DNA of 64,000 bases, taken from contig CACNUI010000002.1 of NCBI GenBank assembly GCA_902623545.1, forward strand, positions 1-64,000. The letters are read 5' to 3'. The notes below the pieces were generated by a model. That model was not told the DNA's origin, ran no database searches, and saw only the letters and a program-made list of their open reading frames with translations. This document shows, piece after piece, positions 28,940 through 51,577 of the stretch. The translations under genes were made by a program, and so were the position numbers. The stretch's first letter is position 1. Each line of letters starts with the position of its first letter. This DNA is from an uncultured Alphaproteobacteria bacterium. Lineage in GTDB: Bacteria; Pseudomonadota; Alphaproteobacteria; HIMB59; GCA-002718135.

Positions 28940-28969
28940 ATGACAAAACACATAATATCTTAATATGCT
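28940..28969 (+). promoter_or_regulatory. Candidate sigma-70 promoter for infC operon
   Basis: ATGACA (28940-28945), 18-bp spacer, TATGCT (28964-28969): five and four matches to the consensus hexamers. Transcription would start about 30 nt before the infC start at 29006. It lies in the 148-nt gap between the divergent GT9 gene and infC. In a 70% AT sequence such matches are frequent, so this is tentative. Confidence 0.35.
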
Positions 28970-29005
28970 ATTTAATAATAGCTATAACATAATCTCTATA
29001 TAATT

Positions 29006-29545
29006 TTGGCCGTTAACTTTAAAACAAAAAAAGATATTGGTCCTAGAATCAACGAGCAAATCACTGCAAGTGAAGTTAGACTTATATCAAGTAATGGAAA
29101 ACAGTTAGGAATACTAAGTATTCGTGAAGCTCTTATTCAAGCAGAAGATGAAGGATTTGATCTAGTTGAAGTTTCTCCAGAAGCAAATCCGCCGGTGTGT
29201 AAGATCATTGATTATGGAAAATTAAAATATAGAGAACAAAAAAGTAAAAAAGAAGCCAAAAAAAAGCAAAAAACAATTGAAGTAAAAGAAATTAAAATGA
29301 GACCTGGAATAGATACACACGATTATAATGTTAAAGTAAAAGCTCTTTCAAAATTTATTGGAGGGGGAAATAAGGTTAAGGTCTCGATGCGTTTTAAGGG
29401 CAGAGAGATGGAACATCAAAATTTAGGTTTTGATCTACTAAAAAAACTCACTACAGAAGTTGAGGAATATGCAAAGGTAGAAGTAGCGCCAAAATTTGAG
29501 GGTAAACAAATAATGATGATTTTAGTCCCTCAAATCGTCAAATAA
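29006..29545 (+). CDS. infC: Translation initiation factor IF-3
   Basis: Binds the 30S subunit and checks start-codon and initiator-tRNA pairing. The 179-aa protein has the family N-terminus GPRINEQI, the SREAL-type linker helix and the C-terminal domain with MRFKGREMEHQ. There is no ATG near the family start: the frame begins TTG (29006), preceded directly by ATT (29003). Non-AUG starts are the known autoregulatory device of infC, since IF-3 rejects such codons. No clear Shine-Dalgarno is visible. It is followed by rpmI-rplT, the universal order. Confidence 0.95.
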   Translation: MAVNFKTKKDIGPRINEQITASEVRLISSNGKQLGILSIREALIQAEDEGFDLVEVSPEANPPVCKIIDYGKLKYREQKSKKEAKKKQKTIEVKEIKMRPGIDTHDYNVKVKALSKFIGGGNKVKVSMRFKGREMEHQNLGFDLLKKLTTEVEEYAKVEVAPKFEGKQIMMILVPQIVK

Positions 29546-29594
29546 CTGTAAATATTGCAAAAGATCAATTAATCAGTATAAACCCATCAAACTT

Positions 29595-29619
29595 GTTGTG
29601 GCCTGCGGGGCAGCCCAAC
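29595..29619 (+). ncRNA. GC-rich leader hairpin before rpmI (candidate r-protein control element)
   Basis: GTTG...CAAC closes a stem of ten pairs with two single-base bulges on the 5' side, capped by a GGG loop (29607-29609). It sits 26 nt upstream of the rpmI ATG, in a 100-nt infC-rpmI gap. The stem is strikingly GC-rich compared with the surroundings. No U-run follows, so it is not an intrinsic terminator. The position is where L20-binding or L35/L20 leader elements are found in other bacteria; its identity here is inference. Confidence 0.55.
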
Positions 29620-29645
29620 GGTAAACTTAAATAAAGGAGATTTCA

Positions 29646-29846
29646 ATGCCCAAGCTTAAAACTAAGAGCAGTTTGAAAAAAAGATTTTCAAGAACAGGAA
29701 CTGGAAAGATTAAATTTAAACCTGCTGGAAAAAGACACGGAATGAGTAAACGTTCCAACAAATTCATTCGTAACACTAAAAGATCAGCAATTATGTCATC
29801 AGGTGACGCTGCTTTGATAGATCATATGTTACCATACAATAAGTAG
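29646..29846 (+). CDS. rpmI: 50S ribosomal protein L35
   Basis: A 66-aa bL35, the normal length, with the family start [20 protein letters not shown] and the [12 protein letters not shown] middle. A strong AAGGAG lies seven bases before the ATG. It is followed by rplT after 11 nt. Confidence 0.97.
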
Positions 29847-30240: not shown

Positions 30241-31299
30241 ATGGCATTTGCTGAAAATAAAATTGATGTTCTAAAAAAAATTAAAGCTTCAAAATCCTTC
30301 GAAGATTTAGAAAAACTTCGACTATATTATCTAGGTAAAAAAGGATTAATACCTGAAGCTTTAAAAGGATTAGGCTCTTTGTCGATTGAAGAAAAAAAAT
30401 CGAAAGGACAGGAATTAAATATTATTAAAAAAGAAATTGAAGAAGGTATTAAAAACCAAAGAACAGAAATTGAAAATATTGAAATTTCAAACAAGATTAA
30501 TTTAGAATCAATTGATGTTACTCTACCACCTAATATTTCTGAAAAAGGAAAAATACACCCAATTAGTCAAACAATATTTAATATTATAGAAATTTTTGGA
30601 AATTTAAATTATGCAGTGGAAACAGGTCCAGATATAGAAACAGATTTTAATAATTTTACAGCTTTAAATATCCCAGAACATCATCCAGCAAGAGAAATGC
30701 AGGATACTTTTTATGTTCAGGATAATGGAGACAAAAATGTTCTTCGAACCCATACCAGTCCTGTTCAAGTGAGAACTATGCTTAACACAAAACCACCTAT
30801 TAAAATTATTGTGCCTGGCAGAACTTATAGAAGTGACTCAGATGCTACACATGCTCCTATGTTTCATCAGGTAGAAGGTTTAGTCGTTGATACAAGTTCT
30901 ACTATGGTTGATTTAAAATCAACACTCGTTTCATTCTTAGAAGAATTTTTCGAAGTGAAAAACTTACAATACCGTTTTCGCCCTAGTTACTTTCCTTTTA
31001 CCGAGCCTAGTGCAGAAATGGATGTAGCTTATACCAAAGTAAATAATAAAATTAAAATTGGTGAAGGGGATAAATGGTTAGAAATATTGGGTTGTGGAAT
31101 GGTCAATCCTATAGTTTTAGATAATTGTAATATCAATTCAAAACAGTTTCAGGGTTTTGCTTTTGGTATGGGAATTGAGCGTTTGTCGATGCTTAAATAT
31201 GGCATTACAGATTTAAGAAGTTTTTTTGATCCAAATTATAGATGGCTGGATCATTATGGTTTTAGTATTTTGGATAACCAAACACGATCAGGGCTATAA
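30241..31299 (+). CDS. pheS: Phenylalanine-tRNA ligase alpha subunit
   Basis: Catalytic subunit of the alpha2beta2 enzyme. The protein is 352 aa from the ATG at 30241; a TTG immediately before could add one residue. Class II motifs are MFHQVEGLVVD (motif 2 region) and GMGIERLSMLKYG (motif 3, near residue 310). An N-terminal coiled coil (about 1-90) for tRNA contact is evident from its Lys/Glu/Leu pattern. No Phe-rich leader peptide precedes it, so classical attenuation is not seen. The stop is directly followed by pheT. Confidence 0.97.
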   Translation: MAFAENKIDVLKKIKASKSFEDLEKLRLYYLGKKGLIPEALKGLGSLSIEEKKSKGQELNIIKKEIEEGIKNQRTEIENIEISNKINLESIDVTLPPNISEKGKIHPISQTIFNIIEIFGNLNYAVETGPDIETDFNNFTALNIPEHHPAREMQDTFYVQDNGDKNVLRTHTSPVQVRTMLNTKPPIKIIVPGRTYRSDSDATHAPMFHQVEGLVVDTSSTMVDLKSTLVSFLEEFFEVKNLQYRFRPSYFPFTEPSAEMDVAYTKVNNKIKIGEGDKWLEILGCGMVNPIVLDNCNINSKQFQGFAFGMGIERLSMLKYGITDLRSFFDPNYRWLDHYGFSILDNQTRSGL

Positions 31300-33690
31300 A
31301 TGAAATTTACACTAGACTGGCTAAAAGATCATTTAGATACTTCTGAAAATTTAAATACCATTACAGATACTTTAACCAATATTGGTTTAGAGATTGAAAG
31401 TGTAGAAGATAAATCAGAAATATTTAAGAATTTTACAGTAGCTAAAGTTTTAAAAGCAGAAAAACATCCAGATGCAGATAAGCTTAAAGTATGCCAGGTT
31501 GAAACAATAAATGGAAATTATCAAGTTGTGTGTGGTGCTCCAAATGCAAAAGAAGGCATGCTTGGAATTTTTGCGCCAGAAAATAGTTATATTCCTGGAA
31601 CTGACTTACATTTAAAAAAAACTAAAATTAGAGGAGTTGAGTCTTGCGGAATGCTTGTATCAGAAAGAGAGATGGGTATTTCTGATGAACATGATGGAAT
31701 TATTGAAGTAAAAGATAATTATAAAATTGGTGATTTATTTAGTAAAATTTTTGCAATAGATGAACCTATTATTGAAATTAATTTAACTCCAAATAGATCT
31801 GACTGTTTATCGGTCAGAGGTATCGCAAGAGATTTAGCGGCAGCAGGAATTGGTAAATTAAAAGACATAAATTATAAAAAATCAAAAGAATCATTCAAAA
31901 GTCCAATTACGTGGAAAAAAGAATTTCAAAATAATAATTTATGTCCTGGAGTAGCAGGTCGATATTTTAAAAATGTCAAAAATGCAGAAAGCCCTAAATG
32001 GCTTCAAGATAGATTGACTGCAATCGGATTAAGGCCTATTTCAGCTCTTGTTGACATTACAAATTACATTACTTTTGACTTGGGAAGACCGCTACATGTT
32101 TATGATGCTGACAAAGTTTCAGGCAATTTAAAAATGCGACTAGCCAATAAAAATGAACAGTGTTTAGCACTAAATGAAGTTAATTATAAATGTGATAGTG
32201 ATATGATAGTAATTTCTGATGATGAAAATAAACTTCATGGAATTGGCGGGGTCATGGGTGGCTTTGATAGTGGTTGTAGTATGGAAACCAAAAATGTTTT
32301 TCTAGAAGTTGCGTTATTTGATCCAGTTTCTGTCACTAAAACTGGAAGAAAACTTAATCTTCAAAGTGATGCACGTTACCGTTTTGAAAGAGGGATAGAT
32401 ACTGATTCCATCTATTGGGGTGTAGACGCTGCAACTCAAATGATTTTAGAATTATGTGGTGGTGAAGTTAGTGAATTTGTCTCTTCAGAAATTAATATAG
32501 AAAAAAGTAAACCATTTATGTTTGATACAAATAAAGTGAAGACTTTCGGTGGAATAGAAATCAATAATGAGGAACAAGAAAAAATTTTAGTTTCACTTGG
32601 TTTTTCTGTTAATGAAAAAAAATCAAAATTTGAAATTCAAAGTCCTACTTTTAGACCAGATATTGTTGGTGAGGCAGATATCGTCGAAGAAATAATTAGA
32701 ATTTATGGTTATAATAAAATTCCTCTTAAAAAAGTAACTAATCAAGAAGAAAAAAAGCATATTTTAAATACCAAAACAAAAACTTTTTATAAAAGTAAAA
32801 AAATTATGGCTCTGAATGGATATTCTGAAGTCGTAACTTGGTCTTTTATGGATGAAGATAATGCAAAAATTATATCAGATGAAATAATTAGTTTAAAAAA
32901 TCCTATAAGTACCGATTTAAATACGATGAGACCATCTACGCTTCCAAATTTATTAGAAGCAATAAATCAAAATAAAGCAAGAATGTACTTGAGGGCTAAA
33001 ATATTTGAAGTAGGTCCAAACTTTTCTAAATCACTACCTGACCAACAAGAAAATGTTGCCACTGCTATAGCTTATGGCTCATCTGATGAACAAAATTGGT
33101 TATCAAATAAAAAAAATATTGATGTCTTTAGTATAAAAGCTGATTTGTTTTCTATTTTAGCTGATTTAAATGTACCTATAGATAATTTGCTATATGAAAA
33201 ATTAGAAGGTAAAATTTATCATCCTGGCAAATCATCTTCTTTGAGGCTTGGTAAAAACAAAATAGCTAATTTTGGAGAATTACATCCAGTTCTATTAAAA
33301 ACAATGGATGTTAATTTCAAGGTGTGCGGTTTTGAAATATATTTGGACAATATTTCACAATTTCAAGAGAATAAATCTTCTTCAAAAGGAGGTTTTACTA
33401 ACAATCCCTATCAAATGGTTGAAAGAGACTTTGCTTTTCTTTTTCCAAAAGAAGTAAAGGCTGGTGAGATAATTAAAAAAGTAAAAAAAATAGATAAAAA
33501 TATAATTCAAAATGTAACGATATTTGATGTTTATGAGGGTGATAAACTTCCAGAAAATAAAAAAAGTATTGCTTTTAGGGTTTTACTACAACCTCAAGAT
33601 AAAACCTTCAACGATCAAGAAATTGAAGAATTATCTCAAAAAATAATAGATGAAATATCTCAATCGCTTGATGCATCTATAAGAAAATAA
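31300..33690 (+). CDS. pheT: Phenylalanine-tRNA ligase beta subunit
   Basis: A 796-aa beta subunit, the normal size. From N to C it has an EMAP-II-like tRNA-binding domain ([18 protein letters not shown], near 45-62), B3/B4 editing region ([11 protein letters not shown]), B5, the catalytic-like core with PTFRPDI, and the C-terminal FDX-ACB domain (about 700-796). The ATG abuts the pheS TAA; the pheT stop shares a base with the lepA start (TAATG). Confidence 0.97.
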
Positions 33691-40610: not shown

Positions 40611-40700
40611 GGAGAGATGTGAGAGCGGTTTAATCAGCACGCTTGGAAAGCGTGTGTAGTAGCAATACTACCGAGGGTTCGAATCCCTCTCTCTCCGCCA
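40611..40700 (+). tRNA. tRNA-Ser (anticodon GGA)
   Basis: A 90-nt tRNA gene with encoded CCA (40698-40700). Acceptor GGAGAGA pairs with TCTCTCC; anticodon stem CACGC/GCGTG encloses loop TTGGAAA with anticodon GGA, reading UCC/UCU serine codons; the long variable arm GTAGTA/TACTAC is class II, as in tRNA-Ser; the T arm is GAGGG-TTCGAAT-CCCTC. The first 39 nt are duplicated at 36469-36507. If the duplication is an integration scar, the promoter and 5' half of this gene came with the element. Confidence 0.96.
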
Positions 40701-51475: not shown

Positions 51476-51481
51476 AGATGA

Positions 51482-51572
51482 GGAAGGTTGGTGGGCAAAT
51501 AAATTGGTAATCCAGTCAGGTCTGAAAAGAAGCAGCTGTAACAATTCTATTTGGGTCACTAAGCCTTCCATT
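51482..51572 (+). ncRNA. ffs: Signal recognition particle RNA (4.5S, small type)
   Basis: The 151-nt gap before dnaX holds an RNA whose ends pair as GGAAGG (51482-51487) with CCTTCC (51564-51569). In the middle is the universal Ffh-binding hairpin: GTCAGGTC, a GAAA-type apical loop closed by U-A, and GAAGCAGC. The RNA is about 90 nt, matching the bacterial small SRP class. Placement directly upstream of dnaX is typical of alphaproteobacteria. The 3' end lies only a few bases before the dnaX ATG, so processing or readthrough is implied. Confidence 0.93.
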
Positions 51573-51577
51573 TAATT

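Follow-up and report, generated by a model that had tools for sequence, protein, structure and literature searches.

What does the single hairpin in the 100-nt gap between infC and rpmI do? The question comes from a 64,000-nt stretch of alphaproteobacterial DNA (the window), in which the forward strand carries infC (IF3, 29006-29545), rpmI (L35, 29646-29846), rplT (L20, 29858-30211) and, after short gaps that make co-transcription probable, pheS and pheT (30241-33690). The hairpin, GTTGTGGCCTGCGGGGCAGCCCAAC, occupies positions 29595-29619 of the same strand, and its 3' end lies 26 nt upstream of the rpmI ATG at 29646. All features described below are on this strand.

The hairpin and its promoter

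A sequence-only reading of this locus had described a GC-rich hairpin in front of rpmI that stands out from a low-GC background. Both points are confirmed: the hairpin is 64% GC as compared to 28.5% for the window, a value equalled or exceeded by only 81 of the 63,976 25-mers of the window. The lack of a U-tract, also noted there, is evident in the sequence 3' of the hairpin, and a site scan of the window finds no terminator-like site at this position. In ViennaRNA, nucleotides 29590-29624 fold with -12.2 kcal/mol into a structure that resembles the ten-pair stem of the sequence-only reading. This energy is ordinary for the composition, with z = -0.42 for the hairpin alone and z = +1.64 in a context of 101 nt. 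As the hairpin folds no better than shuffled sequences, folding energy is no sign of function, and function is argued here from conservation and compensatory changes.

Relatives were compared through the regions upstream of their L20 genes. The sequence GGGCAGCC is found at the same place in all 72 genus loci that reach the infC-rpmI gap, some of which are duplicate records of one genome. Column identity in the genus is 0.97 in the hairpin, as compared to 0.79 and 0.72 in its two flanks. All seven consensus pairs are kept in each of the 29 distinct genus sequences, with both-sided changes at two pairs. Helix P1 joins GUUG (29595-29598) to CAAC (29616-29619) and is paired in every distinct sequence. 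In this helix, the window itself has G-C in place of an A-U pair, L133 having the G-U intermediate, and a U-A pair has become C-G in one genus subclade, with one-sided intermediates elsewhere. Helix P2, set off from the 5' arm of P1 by a bulged U (29599), joins GGC (29600-29602) to GCC (29613-29615) and does not vary in the genus. P2 encloses CUGCG (29603-29607), termed L1, and a loop strand, GGGCA (29608-29612), which lies directly 5' of the GCC arm. The 29595-29619 hairpin is a genuine conserved RNA element. The ten-pair stem can still be drawn, but its inner four pairs (CUGC/GCAG) did not stand: they show no compensatory change, are broken in two sequences and would occupy bases needed for the pseudoknot described below.

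A putative promoter lies just upstream. It combines a -35-like TTGCAA (29555-29560), kept in the genus, with a -10-like TATAAA (29577-29582) after a 16-nt spacer; the latter follows a class-wide TATA pattern. A promoter scan skipped this combination, as its rule requires T as the last -10 base. Transcription would start at about 29589, just 5' of the hairpin, and the leader would thus open the transcript, with the Shine-Dalgarno sequence AAGGAG at 29634-29639. Among 108 class-wide leaders, TATA[AGT] occurs at most 60 nt 5' of P1 in 83, mostly 9-20 nt from P1, as compared to 16 expected from shuffling; TTG[CA] is present within 26 nt before the TATA box in 64 of the 108.

The region upstream of infC has features of its own. 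At 28967-28982 and 28996-29010, a short inverted repeat, GCTATTTAATAATAGC, and, immediately 5' of the TTG start, a -10-like TATATAAT are recurrent in the genus, with no Shine-Dalgarno sequence. This start may be misplaced, or infC may be leaderless.

Occurrence across the Alphaproteobacteria

Across the class, in upstream regions from 88 loci and numerous named contigs, the leader has the layout P1, short internal loop, GGC, a loop variable in sequence and in length (L1, 1 to 47 nt), GGGCAU or a one-base-shorter form, GCC and P1'. With this pattern and a P1 requirement, a leader is found before rpmI in 75 of 88 class loci. The sister family has it in 18 of 19 loci, or in 19 of 19 by the core alone. 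Among the named carriers are Parvibaculum sedimenti, Nitratireductor aquimarinus, Thalassospira and Azospirillum soli, and leaders are also present in contigs labelled Caulobacterales, Sphingomonadales and PS1 clade. The suggestion in the sequence-only reading that the element may be lineage-specific is not borne out, as most Alphaproteobacteria tested have a form before rpmI. None of 43 Pelagibacteraceae loci has the leader by pattern and P1 requirement, which makes it dispensable. L20 loci were also sought in viral contigs, where none was found.

The sequence-only reading had made its proposal depend on a stem that is conserved and covaries in relatives. Beyond conservation in all 72 genus loci, compensatory P1 changes are found in both the genus and the class. 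The mean P1 pairing score is 13.5; exchange of 3' flanks among sequences lowers it to 8.2 (s.d. 0.31), and 0 of 500 such swaps reach the original value; these leaders were pre-selected for at least four P1 pairs, and the parser picks the P1 offset in favour of pairing, a freedom also given to the swapped flanks. In the class alignment, 95.7% of P1 cells are paired, as compared to 30-55% for slid partners. Among 46 unaltered sequences the value is 91.1%, with both-sided changes at all six P1 pairs. P2 is invariant in the class alignments; a MAFFT alignment of the raw leaders (A1), in which P2 was misaligned, was set aside.

Covariance models give a more restricted picture. A first model, R1, was built on N-padded rows (two HIMB59-family rows were short of one internal-loop base); it was too weak and was used solely to recruit R2. 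R3 was built on the 46 unaltered matches. R2 and R3 recover the leader in most other members, the sister family included (L101, E = 6e-4), and match none of 34 loci judged leader-free. In a search of 249 genomes from across the phylum, the hits with E up to 0.02 number 17, and each of them precedes rpmI in a member of the Alphaproteobacteria. Hits with E of at least 0.02 are mixed, and every hit away from rpmI is among them.

The short version of the leader in the window itself is not recovered by R2 or R3, even with filters off, and here the case for homology is at its weakest. A separate genus-specific element, not homologous to the class-wide leader, would account for this miss, as it would for a loop with one base fewer (GGGCA-GCC) and the one-base internal bulge. 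Such an origin is distinctly unlikely given that the hairpin has the same location after the same promoter type and the same P1-P2-GGGC-GCC order. Moreover, the genus member L131 (GGCCUGUAGGGCAGCC) is almost identical to the class core, one-base-shorter cores occur elsewhere (GGGCUGCC), and the sister family has the canonical leader. Position, layout, P1 covariation and loop-start complementarity identify the window hairpin as the apparent local form of a leader that precedes rpmI-rplT in most of the class.

Leaders also differ between lineages in L1 and spacing. In some, L1 is replaced by an extra small hairpin (L045, L049, L081, L154 and L214 are among the examples of L1 or spacing variants); in others, the leader is separated from rpmI by about 60-115 nt that may form additional hairpins. 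In the 43 Pelagibacteraceae-titled loci (L054-L110 range), the infC-rpmI gap is mostly about 50 nt and ends in a TTGTAA...TATAAC-like promoter near the rpmI ATG, which suggests a very short or absent 5' UTR.

Pairing of the loop with the rpmI start

The key feature of the leader, as judged from sequence comparison, is a short hairpin with a loop that pairs with the rpmI start codon, rather than a long stem. Most alphaproteobacterial rpmI genes begin with AUGCCC, and the loop strand GGGCAU matches these two codons as their exact reverse complement. Each of the 90 leaders that have a full-length core can form at least five of the six loop-start pairs in register, and none can do so when the register is shifted by one base in either direction.

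As AUGCCC hardly varies, the comparison was extended to genomes in which rpmI starts differently. In the five parsed leaders with starts of the form AUGUC, loop position 3 is always A; in the 110 with AUGCC, it is always G. By the parser, AUGUCC or AUGUCG starts occur with GGACAU, GGACA or CGACAU loops in L041, L282, L283, L286 and L287. By eye, two further AUGUC starts, L284 (loop GGACAU) and L285 (loop GGAUUU), also have A at this position. AUGCCG is accompanied by a CGGC loop in L062, L196, L267, L273, L274, L305, L309 and L314; in the last three, which were later finds by the model alone, CGGCAU again matches AUGCCG. The start AUGCCU occurs with AGGCAU (L223, L250), and AUGCCA with UGGCAU (L170, and L275 by eye).

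Both variable positions are Watson-Crick in 13 of the 25 leaders with non-AUGCCC starts, as compared to 5.1 expected (2 of 20,000 shuffles); the shuffles ignore relatedness, and the AUGUC cases span several families of the genome sample. The outermost pair is missed in about nine leaders (AGGCAU with AUGCCG, UGGCAU with AUGCCU), and exceptions are limited to that pair. Class-wide covariation of the loop with rpmI codon 2 shows that loop and start pair. A second pairing site at +35 in rpmI (66 of 90) was rejected, as it ignores loop changes and leans partly on G-U pairs.

Five such pairs are possible in the window, between GGGCA (29608-29612) and UGCCC of AUG-CCC (29647-29651), with -7.5 kcal/mol as a free duplex. 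The predicted pseudoknot helix continues P2 without a gap and leaves a linker of 27 nt to the start codon, a distance that an H-type pseudoknot can span. The shortest L1 among the leaders, one nucleotide, is likewise compatible with a pseudoknot. As neither strand varies in the genus, the pairing in the window is proposed on the basis of complementarity and the class-wide pattern.

A candidate L20 leader

We consider it probable, at roughly three chances in four, that the element is a 5' leader of rpmI-rplT in which the P1/P2 hairpin and a start-codon pseudoknot, stabilised by L20, repress rpmI and, by coupling, L20 itself. Transcription would begin just 5' of the hairpin; P1 and the invariant P2 would present the loop strand GGGCA(U); and this strand would pair with (A)UGCCC of the rpmI start to form an H-type pseudoknot. 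P2 and the new helix would abut, and hence should stack. L20 in excess of its free 23S rRNA sites would bind and stabilise this structure. The rpmI start codon would then be blocked, such that translation of L35, and by coupling that of L20, would fall.

We infer L20 as the ligand, with repression on binding and coupling of the downstream genes. Since the loop is directed at a start codon, the natural effect of pairing would be to repress initiation. The case for L20 as the likely binder draws on precedent: it represses rpmI-rplT in E. coli via a pseudoknot plus a hairpin, and its target operon in B. subtilis via attenuation (PMC10931766). Operon content and a loose likeness to helix 40 of 23S rRNA point to the same protein. 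In a by-eye comparison with the helix 40-41 segment, the genome's own 23S near helix 40 contains GGC-UAAG ... CGGGGCUUAA-GCC, also written GGC-UAA ... GGGGCUUAA-GCC. This loosely resembles the leader form GGC-UAAA-GGGCAU-GCC, a similarity that is suggestive only. Many L1 sequences end in A or AA; an r-leader survey states that known L20 leaders have two G-C pairs and an AA dimer in common with rRNA (PMC7247131).

The pseudoknot might be real and serve another ligand, such as L35, IF3 or some other factor, or tune rpmI initiation without a protein. The likeness to helix 40 is loose, and masking of the start codon without any protein would yield the same covariation. This reading is possible but unlikely, as these genes are known to be repressed by L20 in both E. 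coli and B. subtilis, and class-wide retention with an invariant P2 and a variable P1 suggests a specific binder. IF3 fits poorly in particular: the leader goes with rpmI-rplT even where infC is not adjacent, such that infC is not required next door. A plain 5'-end hairpin, serving mRNA protection or spacing of the ribosome-binding site with an incidental start-codon complementarity, would suit the location at the inferred transcript 5' end and the conservation of P1 as a helix. It is very unlikely, as the loop changes along with rpmI codon 2 and a stability role needs neither an invariant GGC/GCC stem nor a start-matched loop. An intrinsic terminator or attenuator is a further reading, suggested by the location of a GC-rich hairpin in the infC-rpmI gap of an operon and by the attenuation that the B. 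subtilis L20 leader uses; with no U-tract, no terminator-like site and a promoter upstream of the hairpin, this is scarcely credible.

The proposed L20-stabilised pseudoknot has clear relatives in function. The E. coli L20 operator of rpmI-rplT has the same genes, its own promoter, a pseudoknot and a nearby hairpin, and acts by translational repression by L20 (PMC10931766), as proposed here. The rpmI start region is involved in the pseudoknot in both, at short range here. In E. coli, a long-range pseudoknot is joined by a separate second L20 site, an irregular hairpin, whereas in the alphaproteobacterial leader one compact hairpin would pair directly with the AUG and codon 2, over a span of no more than about 60 nt in the window. 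Two separate L20 sites of the E. coli type are absent from the 100-nt gap, and no sequence match to the E. coli operator was seen. The Rfam L20_leader of Firmicutes (B. subtilis infC operon) likewise mediates L20 feedback on the infC-rpmI-rplT genes, but it lies before infC and acts by transcription attenuation with a terminator, whereas the alphaproteobacterial element lies before rpmI and has no terminator. The comparison with Rfam leader models that the sequence-only reading had called for gave no match of the Rfam 15 L20 families to the window stretch or to 12 class members, up to E = 10 for L20_leader. Its description of a candidate L20 feedback leader that does not obviously copy known L20 leaders holds up, with L20 as the putative binder.

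In the available portion of the r-leader survey, L20 leaders are listed from Gammaproteobacteria, Firmicutes and, newly, Deltaproteobacteria (PMC7247131). The deltaproteobacterial candidate is also a proposed L20 leader, with its own scaffold, and its two G-C pairs and AA dimer are proposed there as rRNA mimicry. By that partial description it is set apart, belonging to another class and having no start-codon pairing described. The leader is not mentioned in the Pelagibacter and other structured-RNA surveys found in the open literature, which cover the relevant literature in part. In the infC-rpmI region of E. coli K-12 (L316), the Phe leader is the sole Rfam 15 match and the E. coli L20 operator is itself missed, so absence from Rfam is a weak sign of novelty. 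With this and the partial literature coverage, novelty is probable, not certain. We think it reasonably likely that the element represents an undescribed class-wide r-protein leader family in which the loop pairs with rpmI codons 1 and 2, hiding the AUG in the repressed state, and codon 2 of L35 co-evolves with the operator.

E. coli and B. subtilis provide well-documented cases of L20 control, each with a different RNA fold. If correct, the present proposal would extend L20 control of rpmI-rplT to Alphaproteobacteria with a third, very small fold. It would also explain the frequent AUG-CCC starts of rpmI in the class, tying the coding choice at codon 2 to regulation. The fold is easy to test, as loop and start codon can be swapped together. 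Apparent loss in Pelagibacteraceae and retention in another streamlined marine group would offer a natural comparison.

Other Rfam matches in the window are a small SRP RNA (51480-51574) and a tRNA (40611-40697).
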